Part shown: in pieces, positions 2,642-12,485 of the stretch
Numbering within the stretch: the stretch's first letter is position 1
Layout of the letters: each line of letters starts with the position of its first letter
DNA from: Gammaproteobacteria bacterium
GTDB lineage: Bacteria > Pseudomonadota > Gammaproteobacteria > Pseudomonadales > Azotimanducaceae
NCBI GenBank assembly: GCA_018665025.1
Contig: JABJED010000137.1
Coordinates: forward strand, 1 to 37,275
DNA length: 37,275 nucleotides
Direction of reading: 5' to 3'
The notes under the pieces: model-generated
Told to the model about the DNA's origin: nothing
Seen by the model: only the letters and a program-made list of their open reading frames with translations
Database searches by the model: none
Translations under genes and position numbers: made by a program

Positions 2642-3814
2642 ATGACAACGTTATCAAGGTTCTATCAACAGGTTCGTGAAGCTCGCCCGGTGGACCCCAT
2701 AGTACTTGATGATCCGATCCCGTTGGAAGAACTCCAAACGCCAGCGCTGATTATCGACCTGGATGTGTTCGACGCTAATCTTACCCGGATGCAGTCATAC
2801 CTTGGACAGCAGGAAATTGCACTCAGGGCGCACACCAAAATGCACAAGTGTCCGATCATCGCGCGCAAGCAGATTGAAGGCGGCGCAACAGGGGTCTGTG
2901 CGGCAAAGATTAGCGAGGCGGAGGTTATGTGCGCTGCAGGTATCGAGGATGTCCTGGTCACTTCACCCATAACAACGCTGGATAAAGTGAATCGGTTCGT
3001 TGAAGCGCGAAGAAACCATCCCGGATTGAAAATTGTCGTGGATAGCGTCGACTCAGCAAACCTGTTGGCAAAGGTTGCCGGTTTGGAGGGCCTTGTTGTC
3101 GACGTCTTTGTGGACCTGGACCCGGGCATGGGGCGCACCGGAATCGAAACAGGAGAAAAAGCCCTGCAACTTGTTCGCCACATCGGCGAATCGAAAGCAC
3201 TGAATTTTTCGGGTCTCCAAATGTACGCCGGCAACTGCATGCATATTGAAGGGTTCTCTAAGCGTAAACAAAAATATGCTCACATAATGAATAAGGGCAT
3301 TGAGACCCTTGCATTGCTTGACCAGGCTGGAATAGCAGTACCTGTTGTGTCCGGAGGAGGAACCGGCACTTACAATATGGAACCTGACCTTGGGCTGATC
3401 AATGAACTACAGGCTGGTTCATATGCATTCATGGACATTGAGTATCGGGATATCGGCGGGATTGACTCAGCGCAGTTCCTGGATTTTGGTGTTTCTCTGT
3501 GCGTCCTCGTTACTGCGATCAGCCAACCGCAGAGTCGGCTTATCACAGTAGACGGAGGTTTTAAGTCATTCGCTTCGGACAAGATGGCGCCAGAGTTTCG
3601 GGACGTCGAAGGCGTCACCTTTCATTGGGGTGGAGATGAACACGGCATCGTTCAGTTGAATAATCCATCGCTTGAAATTCGCCTGGGGAACAAACTTCCA
3701 ATGCTTACTCCGCACTGTGACCCCACGGTAAACCTACATGATTTTTATTTCCCTTATCGAGATGGACTGGTCCATGAAATATGGCCGATTACAGCGAGAG
3801 GATTTTCACATTGA
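2642..3814 (+). CDS. D-threonine aldolase-family (alanine racemase N-terminal fold) PLP-dependent enzyme
   Basis: LQTPALIIDLDVFDANLTRM...HTKMHKCPIIARKQ (PLP Lys region), DLDPGMGRTGI, VSGGGTGTYN, 'TPHCDPTVNLHDFY' metal-site region typical of the D-TA/DSD1 family. Confidence 0.88.
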   Translation: MTTLSRFYQQVREARPVDPIVLDDPIPLEELQTPALIIDLDVFDANLTRMQSYLGQQEIALRAHTKMHKCPIIARKQIEGGATGVCAAKISEAEVMCAAGIEDVLVTSPITTLDKVNRFVEARRNHPGLKIVVDSVDSANLLAKVAGLEGLVVDVFVDLDPGMGRTGIETGEKALQLVRHIGESKALNFSGLQMYAGNCMHIEGFSKRKQKYAHIMNKGIETLALLDQAGIAVPVVSGGGTGTYNMEPDLGLINELQAGSYAFMDIEYRDIGGIDSAQFLDFGVSLCVLVTAISQPQSRLITVDGGFKSFASDKMAPEFRDVEGVTFHWGGDEHGIVQLNNPSLEIRLGNKLPMLTPHCDPTVNLHDFYFPYRDGLVHEIWPITARGFSH

Positions 3815-4818
3815 GTTTAGAAGCACCCTGGTTCGAGGATTTCTCTGTAGGAGATGATCTGAGTGCCGTTCCTTCCGTTACGGTGACCGATGGCTACGCT
3901 GCGATTCACCAAATGGTTTTTGGGGATCGCTCCCGGCTTCCGCTTGATCTTGTTTTATCGCGGCAGGTGACCGGTCAGGAAAGAGCGTTGGTTAACCCTG
4001 CGCTGGTGTGCAACATTGCGATCGGCCAGAGCACGATTCCGACACAACGCGTGTTAGGTAACCTGTTTTATCGGGGATTGCGATTCCATCGGCCCGTTTA
4101 TATCGGGGATACTCTGACGACGACAACCAAGGTCGTGGCGCTTCGGCAGAATGCGATAAAACCGGGACGGCCTTCCTCGGGAATGGTTGGCCTGGAAATG
4201 CACGTCGTGAACCAGGATGGTGAAACCGTCCTGCTATTCTGGCGATGTCCCATGGTGCCCTGCAGAGAAGAGAATGCTGATACCGGTTACAATGATGATT
4301 TATCGTTAATGCCGGAGAATATCGATCCTGAAGACCTGTTGAGTGCTGTTCCTGATTGGAATCTGGATTTACTACCAGCCGTCACAGATGAGTTCAGCCC
4401 GGGAAATGTCATTAAGGTTGAAGCCAGGGACACTGTGACTTCCGCGCCAGAAATAGTACGAATGACATTAAACCTGGCGATGACGCATACCGATGCAGGT
4501 CGCGGTGTCTATAAGAGGCGACTGGTATACGGTGGGCACACCATTTCGCTGGCGGCTGCCCAGCTTTCAAGGGTACTGCCTTCACTCGCAACCGTGCTTT
4601 GCTGGTATAAATGTAACCATGTTGCGCCCGTGTTTGAGCAGGATGTTTTGAGCAGCGTAATAACAGTCAAGGGAGAAACTTCGGCAGGTAAGGGAAAAAT
4701 TCTGGACCTGGGTATCGATGTGTATGCAGAAAGGGGATCAGAAGCCCCGGAACCTGGAAGTGATATCAAAGTGCTTGATTGGCAATTAGCGGTGTTAGTC
4801 GGAGGTAAAGGTGTCTAA
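3811..4818 (+). CDS. MaoC/FAS1-type double-hotdog acyl-CoA hydratase/dehydratase; candidate C5-dicarboxylyl-CoA (mesaconyl-CoA-like) hydratase
   Basis: APWFEDFSVGDDL N-terminus; two hotdog-like halves; 'RRLVYGGHTISLAAAQLSR'; overlaps the Mct-like gene. ORF track starts at 3781; TTG at 3811, next to the upstream stop, is the more likely start. Confidence 0.75.
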   Translation: MSLEAPWFEDFSVGDDLSAVPSVTVTDGYAAIHQMVFGDRSRLPLDLVLSRQVTGQERALVNPALVCNIAIGQSTIPTQRVLGNLFYRGLRFHRPVYIGDTLTTTTKVVALRQNAIKPGRPSSGMVGLEMHVVNQDGETVLLFWRCPMVPCREENADTGYNDDLSLMPENIDPEDLLSAVPDWNLDLLPAVTDEFSPGNVIKVEARDTVTSAPEIVRMTLNLAMTHTDAGRGVYKRRLVYGGHTISLAAAQLSRVLPSLATVLCWYKCNHVAPVFEQDVLSSVITVKGETSAGKGKILDLGIDVYAERGSEAPEPGSDIKVLDWQLAVLVGGKGV

Positions 4819-6022
4819 AGGTGTCCTCAGTGGAATGAAAGTTGTGGAAGGTTCTGCGTTTGTCGCAGCGCCGCTGGGTGGGATGACTCTGGCGCAACTT
4901 GGTGCCGATGTCATTCGATTTGACCCGATTGGGGGTGGACTCGATTACCGGCGATGGCCCATTACGGATAGCGGTATGAGTCTGTTCTGGGCCGGCATGA
5001 ACAAAGGCAAACGGTCATTCCAGGTCGATATTGGACACGCAGAAGGTCGTGAATTGATTATGGAGTTGCTCCGCGGTGACAGCCAGGGGGATGGGATATT
5101 TCTGACAAACTTTCCTGAACGTGGCTGGCTGGCTTACGAGAAGCTCAAGCAAGTTCGCGAGGATCTCATCTACGTCAACATCATGGGCGATCGGAAAGGT
5201 GGCTCAGCTCTCGACTACACCGTGAACTGTGCGGTTGGCTTCGCCAGTGCAACAGGGGATCCATCGAATGAGGACCCCACTAACTACCTGTTGCCCGCCT
5301 GGGACAACATTACGGGGCAGATGTCGGCGGTGGCATTGCTGGCGGCTGACCGTTACAGGCGTATCAATGGTGAGGGGCAATTGGTGAAAATTGCCCTGAA
5401 AGACGTGGCAGTCGCGACAGCAAGTAATCTCGGTAATATCTCAGAAGTAACGATTAACAACGAAGACCGCCAGAAAGCGGGTAATTACCTCTATGGCGCT
5501 TTTGGTCGGGACTTTGTGTCAAAAGATGGTGTTCGGGTCATGATTGTTGGATTAACGCCGCGCCAGTGGAAGGGCATTGTCGAATCAATGGGGCTTTCGG
5601 AGCAGATGTCATCGTTGGAGATTGAGTTGGGCTATAGCCTTTCAGGTGAAGGAGAGCGATTTAAGGCTCGCCATAAGATAGCCGAATTGGTCGAGCCATG
5701 GTTCGCGTGCAAAGCCTATTCAGAGATTTGCCCTTTGTTCGATGAACATGCGGTTTGCTACGGACCTTACAGAAGCTTCAGGGAAATGGTTGAAGATGAT
5801 GATGACTGTTCGCCCGATAACCCAATGATGGGAATGGTTACCCAGCCGGATATTGGAGAGTATCTCGCCTCAGGGTCACCGATCCGGTTTGTAGACGACA
5901 ACCTCGAAACGCTTCCTGCGCCGACGCTGGGGCAGCACACCGAGGAAATTCTTAAGCAAGAGCTCTCGCTAAGTGACGGCGAAGTCGGCCGCCTGAAGGC
6001 CCAGGGTATTGTTGCCTGGTAG
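4811..6022 (+). CDS. mct: CaiB/BaiF CoA-transferase family protein, 2-methylfumaryl-CoA isomerase (mesaconyl-CoA C1-C4 CoA transferase)-like
   Basis: GVLSGMKVVEGSAFVAAPLGGMTLAQLGADVIRFDPIGGGLDYRRWPITDSGMSLFWAGMNKGKRS closely matches recalled Mct-type sequences; GTG start overlapping the previous stop. Confidence 0.82.
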   Translation: MSKGVLSGMKVVEGSAFVAAPLGGMTLAQLGADVIRFDPIGGGLDYRRWPITDSGMSLFWAGMNKGKRSFQVDIGHAEGRELIMELLRGDSQGDGIFLTNFPERGWLAYEKLKQVREDLIYVNIMGDRKGGSALDYTVNCAVGFASATGDPSNEDPTNYLLPAWDNITGQMSAVALLAADRYRRINGEGQLVKIALKDVAVATASNLGNISEVTINNEDRQKAGNYLYGAFGRDFVSKDGVRVMIVGLTPRQWKGIVESMGLSEQMSSLEIELGYSLSGEGERFKARHKIAELVEPWFACKAYSEICPLFDEHAVCYGPYRSFREMVEDDDDCSPDNPMMGMVTQPDIGEYLASGSPIRFVDDNLETLPAPTLGQHTEEILKQELSLSDGEVGRLKAQGIVAW

Positions 6023-7236: not shown

Positions 7237-10134
7237 ATGGCTCGTGACGAACATAAATCTGACCTGGAGATCTATCGCAGACTATTAACCTACGTGCTGC
7301 CCTACTGGGGTGCGTTCGTGATCAGTATTGTCGGTTTTTTGATCTATTCACTGTCGAATGTTTCCTTTGTTTGGCTGGTCAGCTACATCGTAGATTCGCT
7401 TCAATCCGGTGCCGTTCCTATTGCGGCCGAGCTTAAGGAATATTTATCTGCAATCCTGGGCGAGGAGGGTGACCTTAATCGGACCCTTATACCAGTTCTG
7501 CTGGTGTTAATAGCGACGACCCGCGGGCTCGGCGCATTCGTTGGCAACTACTTTATCGCTTACGTGTCCAACAACCTGGTTCACAATCTGAGGCGGGAGT
7601 TGTTTGATCGTCTGCTTACGCTACCCAGTGCCTTTTATGACCGGCATGCGATGGGACATCTGGTTGCCAAAGTGACTTTCCATGTCACCCAGGTTACGGG
7701 TGCAGCGACCGATGCCGTGAGAGTCATCATTCGGGAAGGATTCACAGTCCTTGGATACATGGGGTACCTGCTGTTTCTGAGCTGGAAGCTCACCCTGGTA
7801 TTCTTTGCGGTAGCGCCGGTTATCGCCCTGCTTGTTGGCGTAGCGGGTAAGCGATTCAGGCGAATCAGTCAACGTATTCAGAATTCCATGGGGGATGTTA
7901 CCCATGTCGCCTCTGAAGCTGTTCAGGGCTACCGTGAAGTCAGGACTTTTGGTGGTAGTGACTATGAAAGCGAACGTTTTAACAAAGTGAGTCAGGACAA
8001 TCGTCGGCAGTCGATGAAAATGGTAGTGACATCATCTCTGGCGACCCCTGCAATTCAGATCATGGTTTCCTTTGCCCTGGCGGGGCTTGTATGGCTGGTG
8101 TTGGACCCTGTTTTTCTCGCGAACATGTCGACGGGTGGGGTCATTGCGTTCATCACCACTGGAGGCCTGTTGGCCAAGCCGATACGCCAACTGTCAGAGG
8201 TGGTAGCTACCGTACAGAAAGGACTGGCAGCAGCCGAAGATATCTTTGATCTGTTTGATGAAGAAGTAGAAAAAGACGTCGGTAAGCTTGAGATCGACAG
8301 GGTTGTCGGGAAAGTCGAGTTCAGGAATGTTGAATTCGGATATCAGAGCAATTCGAAGACCGTATTGAAGGGCATCAGCTTCACTGTAAACCCCGGTGAG
8401 ACCGTCGCCCTGGTTGGTAGATCAGGCAGTGGCAAGAGTACCCTGATGAGCCTGATACCGCGCTTTTATGCTCCGAACAGCGGAGAGATTCTTATTGACG
8501 GTCACCCTATCGATTCGTTCACGCTGGATAACCTCAGGGAACACATCGCTATTGTGAGTCAGCAGGTTACCTTGTTCAACGATACGGTGATGCGAAACAT
8601 CGGCTATGGCACGCTTCATGGGGCCAGCAGAGATGCAGTAAAGGGCGCCGCGGAGAAAGCCTACGCCTGGCAGTTTATAGAAGAGCTGGATTCTGGTCTT
8701 GATACCATCGTCGGTGATGATGGGGTTCTTTTATCCGGCGGTCAGCGTCAGCGACTCGCTATAGCAAGAGCTTTTCTGAAGGATGCGCCGATCCTGATCC
8801 TTGATGAGGCGACGTCATCACTTGATATGGAGTCTGAACGTTATATACAGTCGGCGCTTGAAGCAGTTGTTCAGGGCAGGACAACTTTCATCATTGCTCA
8901 CCGTCTATCAACGATCGAAAAAGCAGATCGAATATTTGTTATCGAAGAAGGTCAGATAGTCGAAGAGGGCTGCCATGAGGAATTGCTGGCGAAAGGTGGA
9001 TTTTATTACCAGTTACACGCCAAGGATGAGATAGCCGAAAGCACGCCTTCATCGCTCAAACCAATAACGGTTGGCGCTCAATTCGAAACAAGAAAATACA
9101 ATACACGAGGTGCTGGCTCCAGTTTTCTGGTTGATGCCTGGTACAACGATACTCTGTGGGTTAAAGCGTTTGCACCACTATCATATCTCTATAGGATGCT
9201 CGCCTCGCTTCGTAGAAGCTGGCTGACAAAACGATCGGTTTGGAAATCGCCTGTACCGCTCATTATAGTCGGAAATATTTCGGTGGGAGGTACCGGTAAA
9301 TCGCCTTTGGTTATTGGCATCGTACAATACCTCATAGAGCTGGGTCTGAGGCCTGGCGTGGTAAGCCGAGGCTATGGCGCTAATTCTAACCATTACCCGG
9401 TCGAAGTGACTATGACCTCATCGGGTGCTGAAGTCGGTGATGAGCCCCTGATGATCTACAAGCGCACTGGAGTGCCCGTTGTTGTAGACCCGGACAGGGT
9501 TCGTGCGGTGAAAGAACTTATTAGTCATCATGAGTGCGATGTCGTAGTGAGTGATGATGGCTTGCAACATTATGCGCTGGGAAGAGCCATAGAGATCGTG
9601 GTGATCGATGGTGTACGAGGCCTCGGTAATGGGCTCTGTCTGCCCGCTGGGCCTCTTAGGGAACCAGTGTCGCGTTTGGAAGAAGTTGACCTTGTTGTCA
9701 TTAACGGTGAGCACAGCGTACCGCGATTGGGTAATGCTGCAAACTCCTCGATGATGCAATTAAAACCGGTCAGACTTGTGAATATGACCACCGGTGACGG
9801 GAAACCTGCTGATTCACTTGGCGGTAAAACTGTTCATGCTGTGGCTGGAATTAGTCATCCCGAGCGTTTTTTCAATACGCTTAACTCACTTGGAATTGTG
9901 GTCATACCTCACGAGTTTCCTGATCATCATGCATTTACAATTGAAGATGTTAACTTCGATGACAATATCCCTGTAGTAATGACAGAAAAGGACGCGGTAA
10001 AACTCGACATACCCGGATTGCCAGAGGGCCTATACTGGTATCTGGAAGTCGAAGCCTGCTTTGATTTAGCGAAAATTGATGCCCTTCTGAATAAGGCAGG
10101 GATTGAAAAAATAAAACGTACTACCGGAGGCTGA
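7237..10134 (+). CDS. msbA-lpxK: Fusion of lipid A flippase MsbA (ABC transporter, N-terminal) and tetraacyldisaccharide 4'-kinase LpxK (C-terminal)
   Basis: ABC half: Walker A GRSGSGKST, signature LLSGGQRQRLAIARA, Walker B ILILDEATSSLD. LpxK half: VPLIIVGNISVGGTGKSPLV...PGVVSRGYG...GDEPLMIYKRTGVPVVVDPDR...VVSDDGLQHYALGR...PAGPLREP. One uninterrupted 965-codon frame. Confidence 0.95.
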   Translation: MARDEHKSDLEIYRRLLTYVLPYWGAFVISIVGFLIYSLSNVSFVWLVSYIVDSLQSGAVPIAAELKEYLSAILGEEGDLNRTLIPVLLVLIATTRGLGAFVGNYFIAYVSNNLVHNLRRELFDRLLTLPSAFYDRHAMGHLVAKVTFHVTQVTGAATDAVRVIIREGFTVLGYMGYLLFLSWKLTLVFFAVAPVIALLVGVAGKRFRRISQRIQNSMGDVTHVASEAVQGYREVRTFGGSDYESERFNKVSQDNRRQSMKMVVTSSLATPAIQIMVSFALAGLVWLVLDPVFLANMSTGGVIAFITTGGLLAKPIRQLSEVVATVQKGLAAAEDIFDLFDEEVEKDVGKLEIDRVVGKVEFRNVEFGYQSNSKTVLKGISFTVNPGETVALVGRSGSGKSTLMSLIPRFYAPNSGEILIDGHPIDSFTLDNLREHIAIVSQQVTLFNDTVMRNIGYGTLHGASRDAVKGAAEKAYAWQFIEELDSGLDTIVGDDGVLLSGGQRQRLAIARAFLKDAPILILDEATSSLDMESERYIQSALEAVVQGRTTFIIAHRLSTIEKADRIFVIEEGQIVEEGCHEELLAKGGFYYQLHAKDEIAESTPSSLKPITVGAQFETRKYNTRGAGSSFLVDAWYNDTLWVKAFAPLSYLYRMLASLRRSWLTKRSVWKSPVPLIIVGNISVGGTGKSPLVIGIVQYLIELGLRPGVVSRGYGANSNHYPVEVTMTSSGAEVGDEPLMIYKRTGVPVVVDPDRVRAVKELISHHECDVVVSDDGLQHYALGRAIEIVVIDGVRGLGNGLCLPAGPLREPVSRLEEVDLVVINGEHSVPRLGNAANSSMMQLKPVRLVNMTTGDGKPADSLGGKTVHAVAGISHPERFFNTLNSLGIVVIPHEFPDHHAFTIEDVNFDDNIPVVMTEKDAVKLDIPGLPEGLYWYLEVEACFDLAKIDALLNKAGIEKIKRTTGG

Positions 10135-10321: not shown

Positions 10322-11073
10322 CTGGTTTTAACGTCATCATCCCGGCCCGGTATGAATCATCGAGGTTCCCGGGAAAGCCGCTGATAGATCTGGACGGCAA
10401 GTCCATGATCCGAAGAGTCTACGAACAGGCATCCAATAGTGATGCTCATACCGTATACGTAGCAACGGATGATGAGCGGATTGTAGACGAAGTAGAGAGC
10501 TTTGGTGGCCGGATTGTTATGACCAACCCGGACCATCCAACGGGCACCGACCGTATTTTCGAGGCGGCCAGCCTTATCGGATTGGGTGATGATGACATTG
10601 TTGTAAACGTTCAGGGTGATGAACCGCTCATCCCTCCCTCTGTGATCAATAAGGTGGCAGGGATGATTGATTCAAATGTTCAGATGTCGACCCTCTGTGA
10701 ACTTATCATTGATCCAAAAGAAGTATTTGATCCCAATGTGGTTAAGGTCATCTCGGACGCTAACGGCATTGCCCTGTATTTTTCACGCGCGCCCATTCCC
10801 TGGTCCAGGGATCACTTCGGATCCGGGTCGATTCCGAATGGGATAAGCTGGTATCGCCATCTGGGTATCTATGCCTATACAGCGGCGATGCTGGCAAGAT
10901 TTGTTACCTGGGATCCTGCACCACTGGAAGTAGCCGAAAAGTTAGAGCAGCTCCGTGCCTTGTACAACGGTGAAAAAATAAAAATTGCCATCTCTCCCGA
11001 TAAAATTCCACCAGGAATCGACGTCCCGGGAGATGTTGAACGCACGCTTAAGGTCCTGAAGGAGGGCGCATGA
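10318..11073 (+). CDS. kdsB: 3-deoxy-manno-octulosonate cytidylyltransferase
   Basis: Frame upstream of the tracked ORF (10405) encodes GFNVIIPARYESSRFPGKPLIDLDGKSMI, the conserved KdsB N-terminus; NVQGDEPLIPP, PIPWSRD. Start assigned to ATA at 10318 because no canonical start precedes the motif. Confidence 0.9.
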   Translation: MAGFNVIIPARYESSRFPGKPLIDLDGKSMIRRVYEQASNSDAHTVYVATDDERIVDEVESFGGRIVMTNPDHPTGTDRIFEAASLIGLGDDDIVVNVQGDEPLIPPSVINKVAGMIDSNVQMSTLCELIIDPKEVFDPNVVKVISDANGIALYFSRAPIPWSRDHFGSGSIPNGISWYRHLGIYAYTAAMLARFVTWDPAPLEVAEKLEQLRALYNGEKIKIAISPDKIPPGIDVPGDVERTLKVLKEGA

Positions 11074-12485
11074 GTTATTCGGTTATTGTGAAGGAAGATT
11101 GTGCAACTTGTCAGTTAGTAGTGCCCGTCATCAAACAATTGCAAGGAGATGACGAGCTAACGATATACAGCCAGGATAACGTTCAGTTCCCGTCTGGTGT
11201 CTCGGTGATCGACGATACGCAGCTCGAATACTCTTGGCGTCGTCGAATTGAAACTGTACCGACGCTCATTAAGCATGATGATAATGGTGAAGAACTAGCA
11301 AGGGTGGTTGGTTGGGAGAAGAGCGAATGGCAGGCGCTGACAGGGAGACCGTTAGGGTTTGATTTGCCGGACTTTCGTCCAGGTTGTGGATCAAAGAGCG
11401 TGGACCCCGGTATGCCAGAAAAGTTGGCCGCACGTTTTGACAGGGATAAGCTGCAATCCCGCGAACTAACCATATCAATGGAAGAAGATGATGTAGAGGC
11501 CTGCTACGACAGGGGCTGGTCCGATGGTTTGCCAGTGGTGCCGCCTACAGCGGAACGCGTTATGCGAATGCTGGCGGGCACGAACAGGTCGCCAGAGGAA
11601 GTCATCGGTGTTGTTCCGCCGGATCTGGTGCCATGCACGATCGAAAAAATTGCGATCAATGCAGTGCTGGCCGGATGTAAACCAGAATATCTGCCGGTTG
11701 TGATTGCATCGGTAGAGGCCGCCTTGCAGGATGAATTCTGCATGCACGGTCTGTTGGCGACGACTTATTTTTCAGGCCCCCTGGTGATCGTAAACGGACC
11801 ACTGAGCCGTGCTATCGGGATGAATTCGAAGGGCAACGCGCTTGGGCAGGGCAACAGGGCAAACGGCACTATTGGACGGGCCCTGCAACTGGTTATTCGT
11901 AACATTGGCGGTGGTAAACCTGGGGGGGTAGATCGATCGGTGTTCGGAAACCCCGGCAAGTACACTTACTGTTTCGCAGAAGACGAGACAAACTCCTGCT
12001 GGGAATCGCTGGCTGTCGAGAAGGGATTTTCTGAAACAGCATCGACGGTCACGTTGTTTGCAGCCGATGGCATGCAAGGGATTGTCGACCAGAAGTCACG
12101 TGACCCAGAATCGTTAAGCCGCAGTTTCGCAGCCGCGTTAAGAGTCGTGGGCCATCCTAAAATGATCATGGCGGCGGATGTAATACTGGTCGTTTCACCG
12201 GAACATGAGCGAGTTTACCGACTGGCTGGCTGGACCAAGCAGGATGTGAAAAATTGCCTGAATAGGCTTTTGATGATCGATGGATCTGAGTTAGTTGCCG
12301 GTGCAGGTGGCATCGCTGAGGGAATTCCAGAGAAGCTAGCGGGCAAACAATTGCCTAAATTTAGGGAAGGTGGACTCAATATCGTCAGGGCTGGTGGCAG
12401 CGCGGGTATGTTTTCTGCCATTATCGCGGGATGGGGTGCCAGCGGCACTATTGGTAGCGTACCGGTGACCCGTGAAATAAAGTAA
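11070..12485 (+). CDS. Conserved protein with N-terminal thioredoxin/glutaredoxin-like CxxC segment and a large C-terminal domain; operonic with the UGSC selenoprotein
   Basis: MSYSVIVKEDCATCQLVVPVIKQL (CATC), 'VPTLIKHDDNGEELARVVGW' thioredoxin-like; C-terminal 'YDRGWSDGLPVVPPTAERV'; start overlaps the kdsB stop (ATGA). Confidence 0.7.
   Translation: MSYSVIVKEDCATCQLVVPVIKQLQGDDELTIYSQDNVQFPSGVSVIDDTQLEYSWRRRIETVPTLIKHDDNGEELARVVGWEKSEWQALTGRPLGFDLPDFRPGCGSKSVDPGMPEKLAARFDRDKLQSRELTISMEEDDVEACYDRGWSDGLPVVPPTAERVMRMLAGTNRSPEEVIGVVPPDLVPCTIEKIAINAVLAGCKPEYLPVVIASVEAALQDEFCMHGLLATTYFSGPLVIVNGPLSRAIGMNSKGNALGQGNRANGTIGRALQLVIRNIGGGKPGGVDRSVFGNPGKYTYCFAEDETNSCWESLAVEKGFSETASTVTLFAADGMQGIVDQKSRDPESLSRSFAAALRVVGHPKMIMAADVILVVSPEHERVYRLAGWTKQDVKNCLNRLLMIDGSELVAGAGGIAEGIPEKLAGKQLPKFREGGLNIVRAGGSAGMFSAIIAGWGASGTIGSVPVTREIK

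Follow-up and report, generated by a model that had tools for sequence, protein, structure and literature searches.

Gene organization of the locus

The window analysed here was a stretch of 37,275 nucleotides from a gammaproteobacterium of the family Azotimanducaceae (Pseudomonadales; assembly GCA_018665025.1, contig JABJED010000137.1). It comprised the entire contig C371; the assembly, 4.79 Mb in size, was 87% complete and 7% contaminated. Statements on this genome refer to single-family searches, made family by family. Two overlapping genes of the window encoded a CaiB/BaiF-family protein, assigned here as a 2-methylfumaryl-CoA isomerase (Mct), and a MaoC-type hydratase, hereafter HYD. The span 2642–6022 was filled by three genes on the plus strand:

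4811..6022, plus strand: Mct, predicted 2-methylfumaryl-CoA isomerase, 403 residues
3781..4818, plus strand: HYD, Rv0216-type double hot-dog MaoC hydratase, 345 residues, proposed mesaconyl-CoA hydratase
2642..3814, plus strand: D-threonine/3-hydroxyaspartate aldolase-like enzyme dependent on pyridoxal 5'-phosphate, adjacent gene

The overlap of the Mct gene with a MaoC-type hydratase gene, reported in the preliminary description of the sequence, amounted to 8 bases. The same description took the whole span as a mesaconyl-CoA module, which may hold for the pair at 3781–6022 but not for the gene at 2642–3814, whose homology was to aldolase-like enzymes. Residues 1–12 of HYD were predicted to be disordered, and the true start of the protein may be an internal TTG near position 3808.

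Identification of Mct

The Mct protein was aligned with the family model TIGR04253 over residues 4–402 (E-value 2.5e-160, 533.9 bits) and was matched over its full length by the enzymes of Chloroflexus aurantiacus (PDB code 8apq, E-value 3e-155) and Roseiflexus (PDB code 7xkg, E-value 2e-152). In the Mct structures, the catalytic and substrate site contains Asp165, Arg47, Tyr136, and Asn100 (PMC9813914, PMC9196870). All four residues were retained in the window's protein as D165, R48 (corresponding to Arg47 of the papers), Y136, and N100, and they were invariant in the 84 Mct rows of the alignment. In the outgroup transferases, Asp165 was kept and Arg47 was partly kept, whereas Tyr136 and Asn100 were replaced. 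Two arginines of the Roseiflexus enzyme, Arg75 and Arg314, were not conserved in the window's Mct, nor in many other family members. For turnover of mesaconyl-C1-CoA by Mct, the published efficiency exceeds 1e6 per M per s.

The tree contained 84 Mct sequences together with 10 transferases as outgroup, and a branch with a support of 99 divided the two groups. The window's Mct was located in a marine gammaproteobacterial clade (support 99) that was sister (support 85) to the clade of canonical 3-hydroxypropionate bi-cycle and Meh-associated sequences. The closest named relative in the set was an uncultured marine Pseudomonadales metagenome-assembled genome (MAG), with 98% identity in Mct. The resemblance to Mct noted in the preliminary description was thus borne out by tree position and mesaconate-binding residues, and the protein is a true-looking 2-methylfumaryl-CoA isomerase with a predicted activity. 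The alternatives of an ordinary formyl-CoA transferase or a succinyl-CoA:mesaconate transferase were rejected on the basis of the identity gap (49–100% versus 21–27%) and of scores of only about 100 bits with the models of those enzymes.

Classification and fold of HYD

HYD was matched most strongly by Rv0216 of Mycobacterium tuberculosis (PDB code 2bi0, E-value 5e-72), followed by a Chloroflexus hydratase (4e3e, E-value 2e-24) and by 8hgn (E-value 1e-19). An AlphaFold model built from 22 homologues had a predicted local distance difference test score of 89.5. When the model was compared with known structures by Foldseek, the best folds were Rv0216, the Chloroflexus hydratase 4e3e, and MeaC (8hgn), with TM-scores of 0.83–0.84, whereas the remaining full-length hydratase matches, including itaconyl-CoA hydratase, had TM-scores of at most 0.64 and were separated by an E-value gap from 1e-26 to 1e-12. 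The structure 2bi0 was the best match by both sequence and fold, with 43% identity in the Foldseek alignment.

The double hot-dog fold and the motifs of mesaconyl-CoA hydratase (Mch) were both present in HYD, as judged from the model and the alignment; the motifs N-x4-H and [RK]R-x-VYGGH in the C-terminal part were common to HYD and Mch. However, the score with the Mch family PF19315 was 19.2 bits (E-value 7e-4), below the gathering score of 26.5 bits, and in the tree a split with a support of 100/100 set HYD and Rv0216 apart from the Mch sequences of Chloroflexi, Accumulibacter, and Gemmatimonadota, although some branches, including that of Rv0216, were long. Because of this score and the separate clade, HYD was not filed as an Mch member, and on sequence grounds it belongs to an Rv0216-type sister subfamily. 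Therefore, the earlier view of a mesaconyl-CoA hydratase-like protein stood for the MaoC type, fold, and motifs, but not for membership of the canonical family. The identity to biochemically characterised Mch was 24–27%. An assignment as itaconyl-CoA hydratase (RipB/Ich) was rejected, as the score was 58 bits against a cut-off of 340 and the fold match was much weaker.

Pairing of HYD and Mct across genomes

Among 80 Mct loci retrieved from named genomes, HYD was located directly upstream of Mct on the same strand in 22 (11 marine gammaproteobacteria, nine Actinobacteria, and two unclassified Proteobacteria), and one further locus had HYD on the opposite strand. The gap between the two genes was about −28 to +82 bases in the 14 loci measured, except for three with over-long predicted starts. 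The genes flanking the pair varied between phyla, which indicates that what is conserved is the HYD-Mct pair itself. In a sample of 195 genomes of the order, Mct was found in 11 and a strong HYD match only in the window's own genome. The divergence of HYD correlated with that of Mct (Mantel r 0.83 for 23 pairs; 0.63, p 0.0016, within the gammaproteobacteria; 0.94 outside them). Part of this correlation stems from the common ancestry of the host genomes, and it is therefore a sign of co-inheritance and not of function. No earlier report of the pair was found in open-access text searches, so that both the HYD partner and its recurrence in soil Actinobacteria seem to be new.

The other Mct loci were partnered by Mch and/or Meh, or by an MFE-2-type hydratase beside methylsuccinyl-CoA dehydrogenase. 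Such a variety of operon contexts and hydratase partners would fit a likeness to the bi-cycle at the family level only, in which the Mct homologue and HYD use a different unsaturated dicarboxylyl-CoA. ThnP and IaaL are known to transfer CoA intramolecularly with other substrates (PMC11659651), and the low identity between HYD and Mch points in the same direction. Against this, the mesaconate-site residues were invariant across the Mct rows, in contrast to the outgroups, and other Mct contexts also held mesaconyl-CoA enzymes, such as (2S)-methylsuccinyl-CoA dehydrogenase. A different substrate is accordingly considered quite improbable.

Two of the alternative arrangements were observed in greater detail. 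In locus L083:1665-9200 and the Marinobacter loci L049, L052, and L054, Mct was located beside the MFE-2-type hydratase, a methylsuccinyl-CoA-dehydrogenase-like protein (PDB code 8ciw, E-value 5e-172 for L083), an HMG-CoA-synthase-like protein, and a thiolase; crotonyl-CoA carboxylase/reductase (Ccr) was above the cut-off in none of the three genomes with loci of this type that were searched. In L177:6852-16549 (genome G426, same order), the lyase, Meh, and Mct genes were divergent from genes for (2S)-methylsuccinyl-CoA dehydrogenase, an Ecm-like (methylmalonyl-CoA-mutase-like) mutase, a 345-residue protein, and Ccr. This cluster looks like an ethylmalonyl-CoA pathway that ends in pyruvate and acetyl-CoA via Mct/Meh in place of Mch.

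Lyase and other pathway enzymes in the genome

As the preliminary description had stated, no malyl-CoA/citramalyl-CoA lyase was encoded in the window. Its proposal to search the genome for mcl and mch led to a malyl/citramalyl-CoA-lyase-type enzyme, but no match to canonical Mch (PF19315) was obtained in the genome search. The lyase, a CitE/Mcl-superfamily protein of 303 residues on contig C521 (L002:1468-2379; PDB code 5ugr, malyl-CoA lyase, E-value 1e-73), was encoded close to malate synthase G. Its origin from binning contamination was rejected, since an independent MAG contained the same two loci with 98% identity each. Of the 25 genomes in the HYD-Mct set, 22 contained lyase homologues, of varying identity. 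The lyase orthologue found in relatives (76–82% identical) adjoined split mesaconyl-CoA-hydratase halves; in some relatives, the cluster additionally contained an acyl-CoA dehydrogenase and a gene resembling succinyl-CoA:mesaconate transferase.

In two uncultured Pseudonocardiales MAGs with HYD-Mct and Ccr (L179:114-6645 and L180), the lyase gene was part of, or next to, a serine-cycle-like operon that contained genes for serine hydroxymethyltransferase, a BhcA-like aminotransferase, a malyl-CoA-lyase-like protein, and a hydroxypyruvate-reductase-like protein, and in L179 also for malate-CoA ligase.

Isocitrate lyase and malate synthase G were both encoded in the window's genome, as was methylmalonyl-CoA mutase, which makes glyoxylate as well as propionyl-CoA a plausible metabolite. 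The organism is apparently heterotrophic, with methylmalonyl-CoA mutase in addition to the glyoxylate shunt. No Ccr match over the cut-off was found in this genome or in any of the 12 gammaproteobacterial relatives searched, and a role in the ethylmalonyl-CoA pathway was therefore rejected for the window's organism. Ccr was above the cut-off in seven actinobacterial genomes with HYD-Mct.

These data also bear on the possibility that the pair acts on mesaconyl-CoA in another pathway or direction, namely mesaconate or methylsuccinate degradation, or a reverse, citramalate-cycle-like route from pyruvate and acetyl-CoA to glyoxylate and propionyl-CoA. The lyase orthologues of the relatives were placed in a mesaconate/methylsuccinate-like cluster, and both a citramalate cycle (PMC8307300) and a C5-dicarboxylate cluster with Ich, Ccl, and Mcd (PMC12290011) have been described. 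However, the hydratase halves and the acyl-CoA dehydrogenase of that cluster were not located beside the lyase in the window's genome, and a reverse route would have no obvious need in a genome that already has the glyoxylate shunt. This alternative is regarded as unlikely.

Proposed mesaconyl-CoA module

On balance, and with confidence only a little above even, the overlapping genes are interpreted as a mesaconyl-CoA module, at its smallest consisting of Mcl, HYD, and Mct, that would interconvert glyoxylate plus propionyl-CoA and pyruvate plus acetyl-CoA. In the proposed mechanism, the lyase of the Mcl/citramalyl-CoA-lyase family, encoded on the other contig, would condense glyoxylate with propionyl-CoA to β-methylmalyl-CoA, and HYD would dehydrate this putative substrate to mesaconyl-C1-CoA. 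Mct would then move the CoA within the molecule via Asp165 to give mesaconyl-C4-CoA. The C4 ester would be hydrated to citramalyl-CoA by a hydratase, possibly HYD itself, or by an unseen enzyme, and the same lyase, if its specificity extends to this substrate, would cleave citramalyl-CoA to pyruvate and acetyl-CoA. Every step would be reversible in principle, so that the direction of flux given here is the presumed one. The module would allow a heterotroph of this kind, which has the glyoxylate shunt and methylmalonyl-CoA mutase, to assimilate glyoxylate and propionyl-CoA jointly as C3 and C2 units.

This interpretation was favoured by the identity of Mct, the likeness of HYD to Mch in fold and motifs, the pairing of the two genes, their correlated divergence, and the lyase homologues in most genomes of the HYD-Mct set. 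It was also favoured by the gene neighbourhood of the lyase orthologue in relatives, by the lack of Ccr matches over the cut-off, by the presence of isocitrate lyase, malate synthase G, and the mutase, and by the restriction of strong HYD matches to the window's genome within the order sample. Several observations weigh against it. The Mct score was below the strict NCBIfam cut-off of TIGR04253 (533.9 versus 725 bits); this cut-off was passed by none of the genomes in the class sample (274) or the order sample (195) and is therefore narrower than the family. In addition, HYD shared little identity with characterised Mch, and the lyase was unlinked to HYD-Mct in the window's genome. No lyase match was obtained in three of the 25 genomes of the HYD-Mct set, of which one was a small single-cell assembly and completeness was stated for none. 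Lyase orthologues (57–82% identity) also occurred in members of the order without Mct; the enzyme therefore serves some other purpose and is not specific to the HYD-Mct module, which weakened it as proof of the pathway. PF13452 matches were found in the genome, but this family is insensitive for Meh, which itself scored only 23 bits. The incompleteness and contamination of the genome were counted on the same side.

One HYD possibly serves both the C1 and the C4 hydration steps. Haloarchaeal Mch, whose evolution was apparently separate from that of the bacterial enzyme, favours the C1 ester by only 3.5-fold (PMC5592240), and this small bias makes a dual hydratase credible. The further proposal that HYD, Mct, and one lyase form a complete three-enzyme shunt between glyoxylate plus propionyl-CoA and pyruvate plus acetyl-CoA, with the pair serving glyoxylate/propionate metabolism in marine gammaproteobacteria and acting beside Ccr in Actinobacteria, is tentative and rather doubtful. 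If true, it would provide the first functional hypothesis for the Rv0216 family.

Flanking genes

The aldolase-like gene overlapped the annotated HYD start by 34 bases, and its product resembled BhcC; among known structures it was matched by 6qkb (E-value 2e-68) and 4v15 (E-value 2e-66). If it belonged to the module, it would split 3-hydroxyaspartate-like amino acids to glycine and glyoxylate and so feed the lyase and HYD-Mct. The gene was located beside the pair in seven of 12 external gammaproteobacterial loci, but it was missing from the other five and from all Actinobacteria with the pair. Its score with the BhcC model NF045642 was 301 bits, well below the cut-off of 690, and the whole region showed conserved chromosomal synteny, which makes adjacency weak evidence. 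Participation of the aldolase is thus very improbable.

On the 3' side, the pair was followed by tolQ/exbB-like and tolR/exbD-like genes, a fused MsbA-LpxK gene, kdsB, murB, and fatty-acid genes. HYD-Mct therefore sits in a housekeeping region. The MsbA and LpxK fusion was a single reading frame of 965 residues (7237–10134) and was also present in the syntenic relatives except L028, which had two separate genes. In the envelope-gene region, a reading frame of 471 residues (11070–12485) had no match to any Pfam or NCBIfam family.

Comparison with known systems and implications

The second cycle of the 3-hydroxypropionate bi-cycle in Chloroflexus and Roseiflexus (Mcl, Mch, Mct, and Meh) shares with the present system the Mct family and its catalytic residues, a lyase homologue, and a hydratase fold near Mch. 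It differs in that no canonical Mch was detected in the window's genome, HYD takes the place of the known hydratase, and the lyase is unlinked. Partial 3-hydroxypropionate bi-cycles were reported from Kentron, Thiosymbion, Competibacter, and Accumulibacter (PMC6593406), which are likewise hetero- or mixotrophic proteobacteria having Mct and bi-cycle-type enzymes; the pathway idea is therefore not new for gammaproteobacteria. However, the Accumulibacter, Chloroflexi, and Gemmatimonadota loci compared here have Mch and/or Meh beside Mct, and those of the Competibacter type have Meh-Mcl-Mct, whereas the window's clade has HYD. In the haloarchaeal methylaspartate cycle, a double hot-dog hydratase and a family III transferase also act on mesaconyl-CoA, but the transferase is intermolecular (model NF041294, 101 bits for the window's Mct against a cut-off of 700) and the hydratase belongs to another subfamily (model NF041625, 19.5 bits for HYD against a cut-off of 560).

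Rv0216, the best fold match, is a member of the same hydratase subfamily as HYD, and its PDB entry is titled as a conserved hypothetical protein essential for bacterial survival. Other Actinobacteria have members of this subfamily in genetic linkage with Mct, which provides a lead to the substrate of Rv0216. The HYD-Mct pairing thus offers a testable function for a hydratase subfamily that includes a structurally solved protein. Furthermore, annotation pipelines that read Mct alone as 3-hydroxypropionate autotrophy would misannotate such genomes. The findings suggest that mesaconyl-CoA chemistry extends far outside the autotrophs in the form of a portable module whose hydratases are interchangeable.
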